This document shows positions 25,892 through 61,090 of a stretch of DNA of 64,000 nt, piece by piece. The stretch comes from Verrucomicrobiota bacterium (lineage in GTDB: Bacteria > Verrucomicrobiota > Verrucomicrobiia > Opitutales > UBA2995). The notes beneath the pieces were generated by a model that worked only from the letters and a program-made list of their open reading frames with translations, ran no database searches and was not told the DNA's origin. The stretch is taken from the NCBI GenBank assembly GCA_027622555.1, contig JAQBYJ010000002.1, positions 62,001 to 126,000 of the forward strand, given 5' to 3'. How positions within the stretch are numbered: position 1 is the stretch's first letter; each line of letters begins with the position of its first letter. Position numbers and translations under genes: made by a program.

Positions 25892-25933
25892 TTGAAACTC
25901 ACCGACGCAAGCATCGGGAGATAACAAGTTTAA
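25892..25933. repeat. Dispersed repeat, 'ATAACAAGTTTAA' family
   Basis: Directly after the asparaginase stop the sequence reads TTGAAACTCACCGACGCAAG, CATCGGGAG, then ATAACAAGTTTAA. CCGACGC/GCATCGG forms a short hairpin. Related copies are at 28565-28599, 28741-28798 and 59241-59296. Confidence 0.7.
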
Positions 25934-28729: not shown

Positions 28730-28740
28730 TCTCCGCGATT

Positions 28741-28798
28741 TCAAACTTTCCCATCAGTCACCGACCCCGCGGCAAGACCACGGGGGATAACAAGTTAA
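28741..28798. repeat. Dispersed repeat, 'ATAACAAGTTTAA' family (long form)
   Basis: Begins TCAAACTTTCCCATCAGTCA, passes through CCGACCCCGCGGCAAG and ends GGGGGATAACAAGTT. Over the first 35 bases it agrees with the copy at 59241 at 31 positions, and both continue into ATAACAAGTT. CCCCG/CGGGG can pair as a hairpin. Confidence 0.75.
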
Positions 28799-28817
28799 AA
28801 CAGTTTGGAAATGCTCT

Positions 28818-55336: not shown

Positions 55337-58300
55337 ATGGCATCCATAAAAAAACTATTTTTCGCGAACCGGATTCGCACGAGTTTAACCATCATAACCT
55401 TTCTGGTGGGTCTGTATGCGCTGGCTGGTTTCATAATTGTTCCGTGGTTGGCTAGACCAAAAATCGAGGAGGCAGTGACCGAGCTGACAAATCGTGAAAC
55501 GTCCCTGGAGAAGCTGCAGCTCAACCCATTCACTTTCTCGGGGACATTAAGCCATTTTACTATTACGGACACAGATAGCGAAACATTGCTTTCATTCGAC
55601 CGAGCTTATGGAAACCTACAGCTTCTGTCGTTCCTGTTTCGTGGAGAAATTCATTTCAAGGAGTTGGATCTCACAAAACCATACTTTCGCTTACAGGTTG
55701 AGGCGAATGGTTCGCTTAATATTGCCGATATTATCAATCAGATAACTGCTTTGGATACAGCTGAGGCAGATCCTGAAGCGAAATCCAAAGCGGTTAAGGT
55801 TAACCTCCTCAAGGTAAACGAGGGCTCCATTTCAGTCACGGATCTTTCATTGTCGGTTCCGTTTAGTTCAATCATTTCGCCAATCAATTTCGACATCACT
55901 GGATTTCACACTTCGGGAGAGTCAGACGCCCCCTATGCATTCTCTGCGACCTCCGAATCGGGCGAGTCATTTTCCTGGAAAGGCTTCGTGGCCCTTGAAC
56001 CTGTCCGATCAAAAGGCTCCTTTGAGGTTAAGGGATTTTCGATGCCCAAATACGAACCTTTTTACGATATCGTGCTCCAGACTGACATTATTGATGGCAC
56101 GATCGGCGTGACTGGAAGTTATGAATATCGCTCCGGCCAAAACAGTATCATGCAGCTTATAAACGCAGGCGTGACTATTGAAAACGTAGAGGTCGCAAAA
56201 GGAAGTGACCAAAGCCCAGTCATGTCACTGCAAAGTGGATTAATCTCAGGTGTCAACATGGACTACATGACTCAGGCATTGAGCGTCGAATCGGTTGAGT
56301 TCATAGGTGGAACACTTTTTGCCAAGCGTCTGGAAGATGGCGAAATTGATTTACTGGCACTGTTAAAAGAAAGCCCTGCCTCCACCTCACCAACGGATTC
56401 CGAAACACCATCCACAGCAGAAGCGTTACCTGCGCCGAATTATCAAATTAAAAAATTAAGTCTGGAAGGGTTTTCAATTAACATAACCGACGAAGCGGTA
56501 CCAGGCACTGCCAGCTTCGCCTTGGACGATGCGAAAATTCTCGCAACGGATATCAGCAGTGAAGCGGGATCTCAACTAGGGTTAAACCTGGGAGCAACAG
56601 TCCGTTCAGGTGGAATTATTGGAGTCAAAGGTTCGATCGGACTGCAACCAATGGGTGGAAACTTTGAAATAGCACTGACCGAACTAGCCCTTGAAGTCGG
56701 AAATCCCTACATCGCAGAGTTTGCTGAGATTCAACTCGCAAGTGGCTATTTGAGCGTTCTGGGAAATTCCGAAATCAACCTGGTAGACGACAAGCCTAAA
56801 GGGGGTTTCCAAGGTAAAGTGGAACTCGCTGACTTGAAGGTCATTGAAAAAGAGTTCGGGCAGGATTTGGCATCATTGACCGGGCTAATTATTGAAGGCA
56901 TCGAGGCAGAGCTAGACCCCATGTCGGTCAAAATTGAAGGGATCACTTTGAGGGATCTTCGCGCGACGATACAAATTAATGAGGATGGGAGCATCAATCT
57001 GATGCAGGCTTTGGGTATCGGGAGCGAAGTGGCTGAAAATGCGGTTAATCCCGAAGAAGCCAAAGAACCTGATCCCGCTGAAGAGATCATCCCCTTCCCC
57101 ATTTCAATCGGCTCGATTACCCTGGAAAACATGGGCGCGATTTTGACCGACAGATCCATTTCACCAACTGTGAGCTTAAGCTTGGAAACCTTATCCGGAA
57201 CAATATCCGGACTATCATCGGAAGAACTTGCCCGGGCGGATCTCGATCTTATTGGCACGCTAACGGGCGGTACCCAATTGGCTGTGACCGGTAAAATTAA
57301 TCCATTGATTGAAGATCGTTACAGCGATGTGGAAATGTCCTTCAAGGATTTTAACCTGACAGCGGTCAGCCCTTATTCTGGTAAATATGCGGGCTACGCG
57401 CTGAACAAAGGAAAACTTTCATTCGATCTGAAATACAAAATTTCGCAGTCCGAACTTACCGGTGAAAATGTGATGATCATTGATCAACTCACCCTCGGCG
57501 ATAAAGTTGAAAGCGAAGACGCCCTCAAACTTCCTATCCCTCTGGCAATTTCATTGATGAAGGATCGCAACGGTGTCATCGAAATCGATGTTCCCGTGTC
57601 CGGTAACCTCAATGACCCGGAGTTTGGATTCGGTCGAGTAATTAGCCGAGCCATTGTTAACATCATAACAAAACTTATAACCTCCCCCTTTTCTATGCTG
57701 GGTGGCCTCATTCCCGGAGGCAAGGATGTCGATTTGAGCATGGTAAGCTTTAATCCGGCTGCCACCGAGTTTGATGACGATAGCATTAAAAAGCTCGGGA
57801 TGTTGGCAGACGCATTGAAAGAACGGCCCAATCTAAGTCTAGAAATTGCAGGAGGCGCAGGTGGATCGGCAGAAGTGAACCGTTTAATGTCGGAACAACT
57901 CACTGGGAAATTGAAGAGCTTGCGGTGGCGTGAATTAAAAGAAGCCGGGAATTCATCGGTTACGCTCGAGGAAGTTGCCTTAACTCAAGGAGATCACGAC
58001 CGGCTGATTGGCCTTTCATTCAATCTCTTGTTTCCAGAAGAAGCGGTTGATTTGACTTCTGAGGCACCGACAAAAAAAACGATTAGCAAACCTGTAAAAC
58101 CAATACCCGTAGCAACCACAGAAACCAAACCAAAAGAAGAAGAAGAAACTGGAGGAATTGCTGGATTCTTTCGTAAAATATTTTCGACCCAACCAACGAG
58201 CTCTCCAAAAGAAGTGGCGACAAGTGAACCCGAGTCAATCGCCTCCCAGGCTGAAGCTACTACCATTGTGGAAGCGGCGGAGGTAGAAAAACCGATGCTC

Positions 58301-58516
58301 ACAGTAGCTCAAATGGAGGCGAGAATACTTGATACAATCGAAGTGAGTGAAGAAGACCTTAACAAGCTGGCTGATGCCCGTGCTGAAAGCGTACGTGCCT
58401 TCCTTGAAACAACCGGTGAGATTTCCACAAATCGATTATTCATAGTTGAGCCAGAGGACCCGACATCCGTTAACGCTCAATCAGGAGAACCCAAAGTCAT
58501 CTTCAATTTGGAGTAA
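55337..58516 (+). CDS. DUF748/AsmA-like inner-membrane protein
   Basis: A 1059-residue protein anchored by one N-terminal helix (SLTIITFLVGLYALAGFIIV). Long repeats of beta-strand segments of the AsmA/DUF748 type follow (LQLNPFTFSGTLSHFTITD; LITSPFSMLGGLIPG near residue 780), then a basic and Glu-rich C-terminal tail. Such proteins span the periplasm and may help move lipids to the outer membrane. A Ser/Thr/Glu-rich linker at about 905-985 looks disordered. No neighbouring gene gives a further hint. Confidence 0.82.
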   Translation: MASIKKLFFANRIRTSLTIITFLVGLYALAGFIIVPWLARPKIEEAVTELTNRETSLEKLQLNPFTFSGTLSHFTITDTDSETLLSFDRAYGNLQLLSFLFRGEIHFKELDLTKPYFRLQVEANGSLNIADIINQITALDTAEADPEAKSKAVKVNLLKVNEGSISVTDLSLSVPFSSIISPINFDITGFHTSGESDAPYAFSATSESGESFSWKGFVALEPVRSKGSFEVKGFSMPKYEPFYDIVLQTDIIDGTIGVTGSYEYRSGQNSIMQLINAGVTIENVEVAKGSDQSPVMSLQSGLISGVNMDYMTQALSVESVEFIGGTLFAKRLEDGEIDLLALLKESPASTSPTDSETPSTAEALPAPNYQIKKLSLEGFSINITDEAVPGTASFALDDAKILATDISSEAGSQLGLNLGATVRSGGIIGVKGSIGLQPMGGNFEIALTELALEVGNPYIAEFAEIQLASGYLSVLGNSEINLVDDKPKGGFQGKVELADLKVIEKEFGQDLASLTGLIIEGIEAELDPMSVKIEGITLRDLRATIQINEDGSINLMQALGIGSEVAENAVNPEEAKEPDPAEEIIPFPISIGSITLENMGAILTDRSISPTVSLSLETLSGTISGLSSEELARADLDLIGTLTGGTQLAVTGKINPLIEDRYSDVEMSFKDFNLTAVSPYSGKYAGYALNKGKLSFDLKYKISQSELTGENVMIIDQLTLGDKVESEDALKLPIPLAISLMKDRNGVIEIDVPVSGNLNDPEFGFGRVISRAIVNIITKLITSPFSMLGGLIPGGKDVDLSMVSFNPAATEFDDDSIKKLGMLADALKERPNLSLEIAGGAGGSAEVNRLMSEQLTGKLKSLRWRELKEAGNSSVTLEEVALTQGDHDRLIGLSFNLLFPEEAVDLTSEAPTKKTISKPVKPIPVATTETKPKEEEETGGIAGFFRKIFSTQPTSSPKEVATSEPESIASQAEATTIVEAAEVEKPMLTVAQMEARILDTIEVSEEDLNKLADARAESVRAFLETTGEISTNRLFIVEPEDPTSVNAQSGEPKVIFNLE

Positions 58517-58666
58517 GGATCTAATCACCCAAAAACTTATAATCCTTTGATATCCTGATCTAATAAAGAAAAGGAAGTATTCGAAGCCGACTTAAGAAAT
58601 GCGGACAAGCCACATTCCTAGTCGCGAAGAGCCTCGCCGTAAGAAAAATAAAATTGACCTCGAAAT

Positions 58667-58688: not shown

Positions 58689-58946
58689 ATGAAAGTCGAA
58701 CTTGTCACTAGCCTCAAACGCCGTGCTACCCAAATCATCAAGGAATTGAAGAAGGACAACGAACCGATCCTGATCACGGAACACGGCAAGCCGGCAGCTT
58801 ACCTGGTCGATGTGGATTCCTTTGAGGCTATCTCGAAGCGTACCCAATTACTTGAAGGATTGGCTCGGGGGGAGGCTGCGATTCAAGATGGAAGAGTAGT
58901 TCCTCACAGTGAAGCAAAAATAAGGATGAGTCGATGGCTCAAGTAG
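58689..58946 (+). CDS. Phd/YefM-type antitoxin
   Basis: From ATG 58689, an 85-residue antitoxin: VTSLKRRATQIIKELKKDNE, then PILITEHGKPAAYLVDVDSF, the Phd/YefM dimer fold, and then a C-terminal toxin-binding tail (VVPHSEAKIRMSRWLK). A longer frame from 58599 adds a basic stretch that does not resemble the family. The stop overlaps the toxin start by 13 bases. Confidence 0.88.
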   Translation: MKVELVTSLKRRATQIIKELKKDNEPILITEHGKPAAYLVDVDSFEAISKRTQLLEGLARGEAAIQDGRVVPHSEAKIRMSRWLK

Positions 58947-59383
58947 TTTGGGCTGAGCCAGCACTTCAGGACTTGGATGCTATTGCAGATTACATTGCAC
59001 TGGATGATCCAACCGCAGCGACAGGCCTGGTAAGAAAAGTATTTGAGAGAGTCGACCAACTTGTCAGTTTTCCGGAAACGGGAACTCATCCGAGAGAGCT
59101 GAAAGGAACTCCGTATAGAAAGCTGACGGTGAGACCCGTTCTGATCTACTACAGGCTCGAAAATCAAAAAGTAATAATCGTCCATGTCGTAAGGGGAGAA
59201 CGTAAATTCAGCCTAAACCGTTTTGAAGACCCTGCGGTTTTCAAACTTTCCCTTCAGTCATCGATCCCGTGGCAAACACAGGAAATAACAAGTTTAATCT
59301 TCTCTTGGCCACCAAAGTGCGCCTTCGGCGAGTGGCCGAACGATTTGGGCTGCTATGCGCATTGGCCCACGAGGCAGCTCTAG
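58934..59383 (+). CDS. parE: ParE-type toxin with read-through C-terminal tail
   Basis: RelE/ParE superfamily toxin, probably acting on gyrase or the ribosome. The core of about 95 residues is normal: VVWAEPALQDLDAIADYIAL, LVSFPETGTHPRELKG, YRKLTVRPVLIYYRLENQKV and VIIVHVVRGER. The family usually ends near residue 98, but here the frame continues for about 50 residues. The extra part is encoded by the dispersed repeat at 59241-59296 and then by the antisense of the IlvD/Edd gene end, so the tail is almost certainly not ancestral. Confidence 0.8.
   Translation: MAQVVWAEPALQDLDAIADYIALDDPTAATGLVRKVFERVDQLVSFPETGTHPRELKGTPYRKLTVRPVLIYYRLENQKVIIVHVVRGERKFSLNRFEDPAVFKLSLQSSIPWQTQEITSLIFSWPPKCAFGEWPNDLGCYAHWPTRQL
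59241..59296. repeat. Dispersed repeat, 'ATAACAAGTTTAA' family, inside the parE frame
   Basis: TCAAACTTTCCCTTCAGTCA, TCGATCCCGTGGCAAACAC, then ATAACAAGTTTAA. It matches the 28741 copy at 31 of its first 35 bases. Its end supplies the TAA stop (minus strand, 59294-59296) of the IlvD/Edd gene, and its body fills the 3' extension of parE. Insertion exactly at the junction of two convergent genes is typical of intergenic repeats. Confidence 0.75.
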
Positions 59384-61090
59384 TTTGGGGCGTTTCCATT
59401 GCTCCGAGCGGCGTTGCATTTCATCGGGGCTGACATGAACCAATAGGGTTTCTTTATCTCCATCCAAACTTACCATATCCCCGTTTTCAATGAGCGCAAT
59501 GGGGCCGCCGATCCAGGCTTCTGGTTCCACATGAACAACCAGGGTACCGCGCGAAACTCCTGATAGGCGTCCATCGGTTACTACCGCGATAGTCGAGTCA
59601 TTTCCCATTCCGGATAATGAAGCGGTGAGGCGTAGCAATTCCGGACAGCCCACTGAAACTCCCTGATAACGTAAAACGATTACATCACCAGTTACAATTT
59701 TCTTATCCAGCACCGCTGAGACCGCTTCACCTTCATGATCGAAGACACGGGCAGGACCTTGCATGCTCCGCGTCTTGGCATTGAGTTTAAAGACACAACC
59801 CAGGGTAGCGATGCTTGATGTGGTATCAGTCGATTTATCGCCGGCTACAATACAAAGAGAAGACTTTGGTTTCAGGGGTGTTTCCACGGAGCGAATAACT
59901 TCGTTGTCGGGATCTTTGAACTCCGGTAACGGCGTATCGGCCAGAAGCTCATTTAACGAATATCCATAAATAGTTCCGGCAGTTTCATCTATTAGGCCTA
60001 CCTCCGTCATGTAACGGGCAAGGGGTGCGAATCCTCCTTCTTTTTCGAAGAGGTCCACCATAACATATTTCCCGGACGGCATGAGATTCAATAGCACCGG
60101 CGTATCAGAGGTGGATCGAATATCTTCCAAATTGAACGGCACTCCAAAGCCTTCTGCGATAGCGGGTAAATGAATCACGGCGTTGGTGCTCCCTCCAATG
60201 GCATGAAGCATTATAGCAGCGTTTTTAAACGACCTGGCATCGACCGCATCGCCCACTACCCTGCCCTCATCGATCATTGTCATCAAACAATCGGCGGCTT
60301 CACGCGCTTCAACCAATTTCTGGGGACAAATAGTCTTATGATCGGTATCCATCGCCGGGGTACTAGCACTTGAGAAAATAGAAATACCGAGTGTACTTCC
60401 CAGGCAGGCCATGGTGTTGGATGTGGCCATGATACCGCAACCTCCGGGGGAAGGTAAGGAGCGAAATAAAATGTCGTCGTGCTCAGCCTGATCGATCTTG
60501 CCAGCCGCCATCATTCCGGCCGCTTCATTGGCCGTTTCAATGTGAGCCGATCGGCCACTCAAGGTACAACCGGCACGTATGGTTCCCCCGTGAATTAAAA
60601 CAACCGGGAGCTCTTTCAACCATGAAGCGGCCAATAGGCCTCCGGCTACGGTTTTATCGCATCCGGTAACAATGATCACTGCATCGGCACAGTTTATTTC
60701 AGTCTGCTGAACAATCGACGATGCAAATATCTCTCTTGAAAATAACGAGTAGCCCATTGCACCGAGCCGGGGCTCTTCCTTGTATTCATGTCCCATGCAA
60801 ATCGCATCGGTCACTGCAGCAACCGGTTCAATAGCAGCTAGCACCTTGCGACTTTTCCAGAGATGTGAGGCCATCTCCTCAGCCAACTGGCGATGATGCA
60901 GGTTGCACAGATTCGTTTCGCCACCACCATAAGTAATCAGAACAGTGGGACCAGTGTAATCGGGAGTGTATTCACTTTCCTGACCACCACGGAAATCCGT
61001 TTTTATGGCTTGGCGCATCCAACCATGCCACATGGCGGCTGGACACCCACCGATATCACGAAAAAAATCGCTGCGCTGTTTCTTGCTCAT
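59294..61090 (-). CDS. IlvD/Edd-family sugar-acid dehydratase
   Basis: A 598-residue cytoplasmic dehydratase with an iron-sulfur cluster. Cluster Cys residues lie in NLCNLHH, VTGCDKT and PSPGGCGIMATSNTM, and RDIGG and GDAVDARSF are further family blocks. Edges such as GPTVLITYGGGETNLC suggest the sugar-acid branch (arabinonate/xylonate/galactonate dehydratases) over IlvD proper, but this is not certain. It could take up the aldonic acids expected from the exported dehydrogenases. The stop falls inside a dispersed repeat at 59241-59296 and overlaps parE on the other strand. Confidence 0.87.
   Translation of the reverse strand: MSKKQRSDFFRDIGGCPAAMWHGWMRQAIKTDFRGGQESEYTPDYTGPTVLITYGGGETNLCNLHHRQLAEEMASHLWKSRKVLAAIEPVAAVTDAICMGHEYKEEPRLGAMGYSLFSREIFASSIVQQTEINCADAVIIVTGCDKTVAGGLLAASWLKELPVVLIHGGTIRAGCTLSGRSAHIETANEAAGMMAAGKIDQAEHDDILFRSLPSPGGCGIMATSNTMACLGSTLGISIFSSASTPAMDTDHKTICPQKLVEAREAADCLMTMIDEGRVVGDAVDARSFKNAAIMLHAIGGSTNAVIHLPAIAEGFGVPFNLEDIRSTSDTPVLLNLMPSGKYVMVDLFEKEGGFAPLARYMTEVGLIDETAGTIYGYSLNELLADTPLPEFKDPDNEVIRSVETPLKPKSSLCIVAGDKSTDTTSSIATLGCVFKLNAKTRSMQGPARVFDHEGEAVSAVLDKKIVTGDVIVLRYQGVSVGCPELLRLTASLSGMGNDSTIAVVTDGRLSGVSRGTLVVHVEPEAWIGGPIALIENGDMVSLDGDKETLLVHVSPDEMQRRSEQWKRPKLELPRGPMRIAAQIVRPLAEGALWWPRED

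Follow-up and report, generated by a model that had tools for sequence, protein, structure and literature searches.

A ParE toxin reading frame that runs on into the decayed left end of an IS200/IS605-family element

The toxin gene of a Phd-ParE toxin-antitoxin (TA) module in the window, by which we mean the whole 64,000-nucleotide stretch of Verrucomicrobiota DNA analysed here, is fused to what is left of an IS200/IS605-family element, its decayed left end. The module lies beside this end, in the gap that separates a dehydratase gene from a gene upstream. As an account of the whole locus we consider it highly probable that a deletion or end-joining event fused parE to the decayed IS end, leaving an accidental tail on an intact toxin core. 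The module itself consists of the following features:

58689 to 58946, plus strand: Phd/YefM-family antitoxin gene (PF02604, 1.6e-13; TIGR01552, 5.6e-11, above cut-off)
58934 to 59383, plus strand: parE ORF, 149 aa, open until its stop TAG at 59381-59383
58934 to 59230, plus strand: parE core, codons 1-99 (PF05016 at aa 4-91, 5.4e-18)

The ParE_toxin domain (PF05016) is complete at aa 4-91 and scores 65.8 bits against a Pfam gathering score of 23; the RelE_StbE model also matches the product, with a score under the cut-off of that model. The cognate antitoxin of a ParE/RelE-family toxin is present as the upstream Phd/YefM gene, whose start was set at 58689 in an ORF that opens at 58599, and which overlaps the start of parE by 13 nt. 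The closest homologues come from the same family, in genomes G006 and G007. Their homology spans both genes of the module, and over aa 1-99 the ParE core is 72-73% identical to them.

After approximately residue 99, the 149-aa ParE diverges from every homologue. The two closest ones measure 103 aa (G006) and 108 aa (G007), within the usual ParE length of about 95-111 aa that the window protein exceeds. In a survey of the class, with lengths read from the position homologous to the parE start of the window, 34 of 35 loci gave 95-109 aa, the remaining locus being a partial match only. A scan of named genomes, which shares part of its homologues with the class survey, returned 79 homologue ORFs of 95-111 aa except for two (114 and 125 aa), and a search for the ParE tail in these 79 gave no match. 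The comparison with homologues that the earlier note had set beforehand thus found a tail that is not conserved, neither among the 34 class homologues nor among the 79. The fusion is present in one genome only, a draft assembly. The excess length is a peculiarity of this one member, and length is no defining feature of the ParE fold.

The extra residues are encoded by two different stretches of DNA:

59224 to 59297, plus strand: dispersed repeat, a decayed IS200/IS605-family left end (the element itself points along the minus strand)
59231 to 59296, plus strand: repeat-encoded part of the tail, codons 100-121, translated as PAVFKLSLQSSIPWQTQEITSL
59297 to 59383, plus strand: rest of the tail, codons 122-149, lying antisense to the dehydratase, with the stop TAG (59381-59383)

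Around codon 100, just where the homologous core ends, the frame crosses into the repeat. Of its 50 extra codons, 22 are encoded by the repeat and 28 lie antisense to the dehydratase gene, which bears out the proposal that the frame continues for some 50 codons past the toxin core, first through a dispersed repeat and then antisense to the last codons of the dehydratase. Such a long open frame is in itself unremarkable: 50 open codons were obtained by chance in 13% of shuffles of the tail composition, from the junction onwards 50 codons or more can be read without a stop in two of the three frames, and the repeat is likewise open in two frames out of three. Short IS-end repeats, their frames mostly open, can lengthen genes through one join. 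For annotation the case carries a warning, as the final third of the 149-aa ParE is not toxin sequence.

The junction could be placed by comparison with both of its presumed parents. Homologous toxin DNA extends to TTGAAGACC. The G006 toxin ends in ATTGAAGACCAAGATCCCTCCTGA, including its stop, the repeat of the sister species G002 reads ATGAAGAACCTGCGG, and the window junction, TTTGAAGACCCTGCGG, is a hybrid of the two. It falls within TGAAGA, which is common to the toxin end and the repeat. A break inside such a shared motif is the pattern left by an end-joining deletion, and this microhomology suggests that the fusion arose by deletion. The native end of parE, approximately 4-9 codons and the stop, has been lost. 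The fusion point also coincides with a hairpin:

59222 to 59245, plus strand: hairpin TTTGAAGACC-CTGC-GGTTTTCAAA, with a 10-bp stem, at the fusion junction (RNA MFE -9.7 kcal/mol, z -4.25)

This hairpin was also flagged as terminator-like, a class that shows no excess over shuffles in the region.

The structure of the full-length protein, which the earlier note had asked to be predicted, was modelled by AlphaFold2 with 29 aligned sequences. The core (aa 1-90) reached a pLDDT of 91-98, whereas values beyond the core were around 45-60, and the tail had no secondary structure past a segment, H100-103; a shallower alignment led to the same outcome. The protein is thus predicted to have a confident core and an unstructured tail. 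Foldseek retrieved the ParE toxins 6x0a, 5cw7 and 5ceg, followed by PfiT (9w3a), and the TM-score by target of 6x0a and 5cw7 against the predicted fold was 0.86-0.88. With its core intact, the toxin most likely remains able to fold and to bind the antitoxin.

What the tail does to activity is less straightforward. In Mycobacterium tuberculosis ParE2 the last 10 residues are required for toxicity (PMC4906023), and the C-terminal extension of PfiT sets the size and stoichiometry of its complex (PMC13048266), so the C-terminus of a ParE-family protein can matter. The toxicity of the 149-aa ParE may be unchanged or lowered. One possibility, to which we give a substantial chance but one clearly short of even, is that the locus is a product of decay, with parE becoming a pseudogene and the tail inactivating the toxin or marking it for degradation. 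ParE2 is non-toxic without its last residues, and here the native last residues have been replaced; moreover, the stable junction hairpin could impair expression, as was proposed for Coxiella enhC (PMC5896051). Against decay, neither the core frame nor the antitoxin gene is damaged, the overlap between the two genes has been kept, and the native last ~10 residues show no conservation among the homologues of this ParE subgroup. The opposite suggestion, that the IS-derived C-terminus or the junction hairpin alters TA assembly or expression, so that the IS end now serves the toxin as a functioning regulatory component, seems to us very improbable. A role for the tail is disfavoured by its predicted lack of structure, by the antisense origin of over half its length and by its presence in a single genome.

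The repeat itself is larger than it had appeared. It had been described as a 13-mer at 59285-59297 (ATAACAAGTTTAA), which turned out to comprise only the last bases of a unit of approximately 70 bp starting at 59224-59231. Copies occur at about 40 places in this genome (G000) and at 42 in the sister species, and the window holds two of them besides the one at parE:

28739 to 28799, plus strand: further copy of the repeat
25902 to 25933, plus strand: partial copy of the repeat

By its sequence the repeat comes from an insertion sequence of the IS200/IS605 family, of which it forms the left end. Contig C67 of the same genome holds an intact element, about 0.6 kb long, composed of a left-end hairpin, a second hairpin, a Y1 transposase gene and a right-end hairpin (CCCCGATGCTTGCTTCGGGG), and its left end is 88% identical to the window repeat. 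Two features by which membership of the IS200/IS605 family is judged were found in this element: subterminal hairpins at its two ends, and the Y1 transposase. The latter is a 147-aa protein that matches PF01797 (1.8e-31) and NF033573, the IS200/IS605 family model, with 120.6 bits against a cut-off of 55. The sister species carries near-identical transposase fragments. The window copy is a solo end without transposase, and its terminal hairpin is degraded. Many other left-end copies adjoin REP-like hairpins of the GTAGGAG type, so this end is in circulation apart from its transposase as well. In both G000 and G002, left ends adjoin several differing GTAGGAG-type hairpin pairs, as if both repeats move or are amplified together.

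Two other identities for the repeat were considered and rejected. A RAYT/REP transposase (TnpA-REP) as its source did not hold, with 23.3 bits against the NF047646 cut-off of 80, and the ends of the repeat, compared by eye, misfit the core-site motifs of integron attC sites. The repeat also does not habitually extend genes. Among 40 distinct copies checked, six ORFs of at least 120 aa, at five of the copies, overlap the repeat by at least 45 nt, and among these only the window ParE has a Pfam domain. In the assembly of G000, contigs C23, C71 and C189 break within 70 bp of identical left-end copies, and the assembly therefore probably hides more full IS copies.

On its far side the repeat meets the convergent dehydratase gene:

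59294 to 61090, minus strand: IlvD/Edd-family dehydratase, convergent to parE (PF00920 and PF24877)
59292 to 59297, minus strand: TTAAAC, an instance of TTNAAC, the motif that borders the IS left end on its outer side, holding the dehydratase TAA (59294-59296)

Orthologues of the dehydratase in four genomes of the genus are 77-88% identical to it. The protein scores under the cut-off of every NCBIfam IlvD/Edd model that it matched. TTNAAC, read in the element's own orientation, was found at 22 of 24 collected borders with A, G or T as the variable base (C in a few copies), and the DNA outside it is unconserved. IS200/IS605 elements insert beside a conserved target sequence at their left end (PMC6006769), and TTNAAC may for this reason be target DNA. 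The dehydratase C-terminus lies at the same position in the window and in G002 (PRED versus PRDK, each followed by the stop). Together with the variable base of TTNAAC and the location of the stop inside the motif, this suggests that the dehydratase stop may be pre-existing target DNA, older than the repeat. The earlier note had it that the repeat supplies the stop of the convergent gene. This is literally so, in that the TAA lies inside the outer motif of the repeat; its reading as a contribution of the repeat is weakened, as the motif may reflect the target site of the IS.

The locus of the sister species is the closest view we have of the interval without the fusion. There, the dehydratase orthologue (78% identity) is followed approximately 435 bp downstream by the repeat and then by a homologue of the upstream gene of the window (55337-58516), so that the repeat has the same two neighbour genes and the same orientation as in the window. 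No TA module is present at this syntenic locus. Over 59224-59274 the window repeat is 90% identical to the repeat of G002, and the two may be orthologous. As the G002 repeat is spaced from the dehydratase by some 435 bp and does not adjoin it, they may also be independent insertions. We regard the G002 locus as a likely before-state of the fusion. The proposal that parE lost its native stop to the repeat and took a new C-terminus from it is thereby backed from three sides: the lengths of the homologues, the homologues without the tail, and the toxin-free G002 locus. The homologue of gene 55337-58516 in G002 (L099, contig C769, 4070-4781) seems to be missing a large middle part, as it passes from aa 12-150 directly to aa 485-580.

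From these comparisons we infer the following course of events. A deletion or end joining inside TGAAGA would have joined parE codon 99 to the repeat, at the cost of a few final native codons with their stop and of the outer portion of the repeat unit. Translation would then continue through 22 repeat codons and another 28 antisense to the dehydratase until a stop was met, and the resulting tail would be an accident with no fold of its own. A different order of events is conceivable, in which the IS, or a repeat derived from it, inserted directly in the 3' end of parE, using a TTNAAC target next to the stop of the dehydratase gene, and lost its transposase part later. The extension would in that case stem from an insertion followed by an internal deletion, not from the joining of a separate repeat. 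This would agree with the outer border of the repeat, which coincides with TTNAAC like that of other left ends, and with the dehydratase stop being positioned as in G002. We nevertheless give it clearly less than an even chance, given that the sister locus has the repeat in the gap without a toxin and that the microhomology on the parE side points to end joining there. That the long frame is an artefact of a draft assembly in which three contigs break exactly at the repeat is barely credible, as the window copy is diverged (88%), unlike the identical copies at the contig breaks, lies inside a 141-kb contig, and has a counterpart between the same genes in the sister species.

Fusion of parE with the decayed IS end belongs to a kind of event already known from other bacteria. 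In Coxiella burnetii Dugway, EnhC gained 33 C-terminal aa from QMITE2 (PMC5896051). There too, a protein received a new C-terminus from a miniature mobile element located at the 3' end of its gene, in EnhC after a small indel. Here, by contrast, the element is an IS200 left end, the host gene encodes an antitoxin-paired toxin, and the frame goes on to cross a neighbouring gene in antisense. The palindromic elements of Rickettsia, which host proteins carry in translated form (Ogata et al., reviewed in PMC10969869), are similar in that repetitive mobile DNA becomes part of a host protein; their insertion into ORFs keeps the reading frame and adds a conserved peptide, whereas the window shows a terminal fusion in which the stop of one gene was removed. 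In keeping with IS200/IS605 elements and their REP-like derivatives (PMC6006769, PMC8266576), the repeat is a left end often joined, in this genome, to GTAG-type REP-like hairpins. Unlike the intact elements, the copy in the window stands alone as a decayed end with no transposase. PfiT of phage Pf4 (PMC13048266, PDB 9w3a) likewise has a ParE fold with residues past the usual end, but there the extra residues form a short structured helix whose role has been demonstrated, while the tail in the window is long and predicted to be unstructured. The toxin host and the IS200 left-end source make this a new case, and a clean one, in which the end of a mobile element has rewritten a host protein's C-terminus and a sister species offers a likely picture of the locus beforehand.

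A further ORF of the same genome ends within an element of this family. On contig C67 (L031, G000:C67, 1-1545 and ~1500-2080), a 514-aa ORF with no Pfam match ends in the intact IS200-like element, and its last ~13 residues (LNLLFPVACFGVGD) are derived from the left end.
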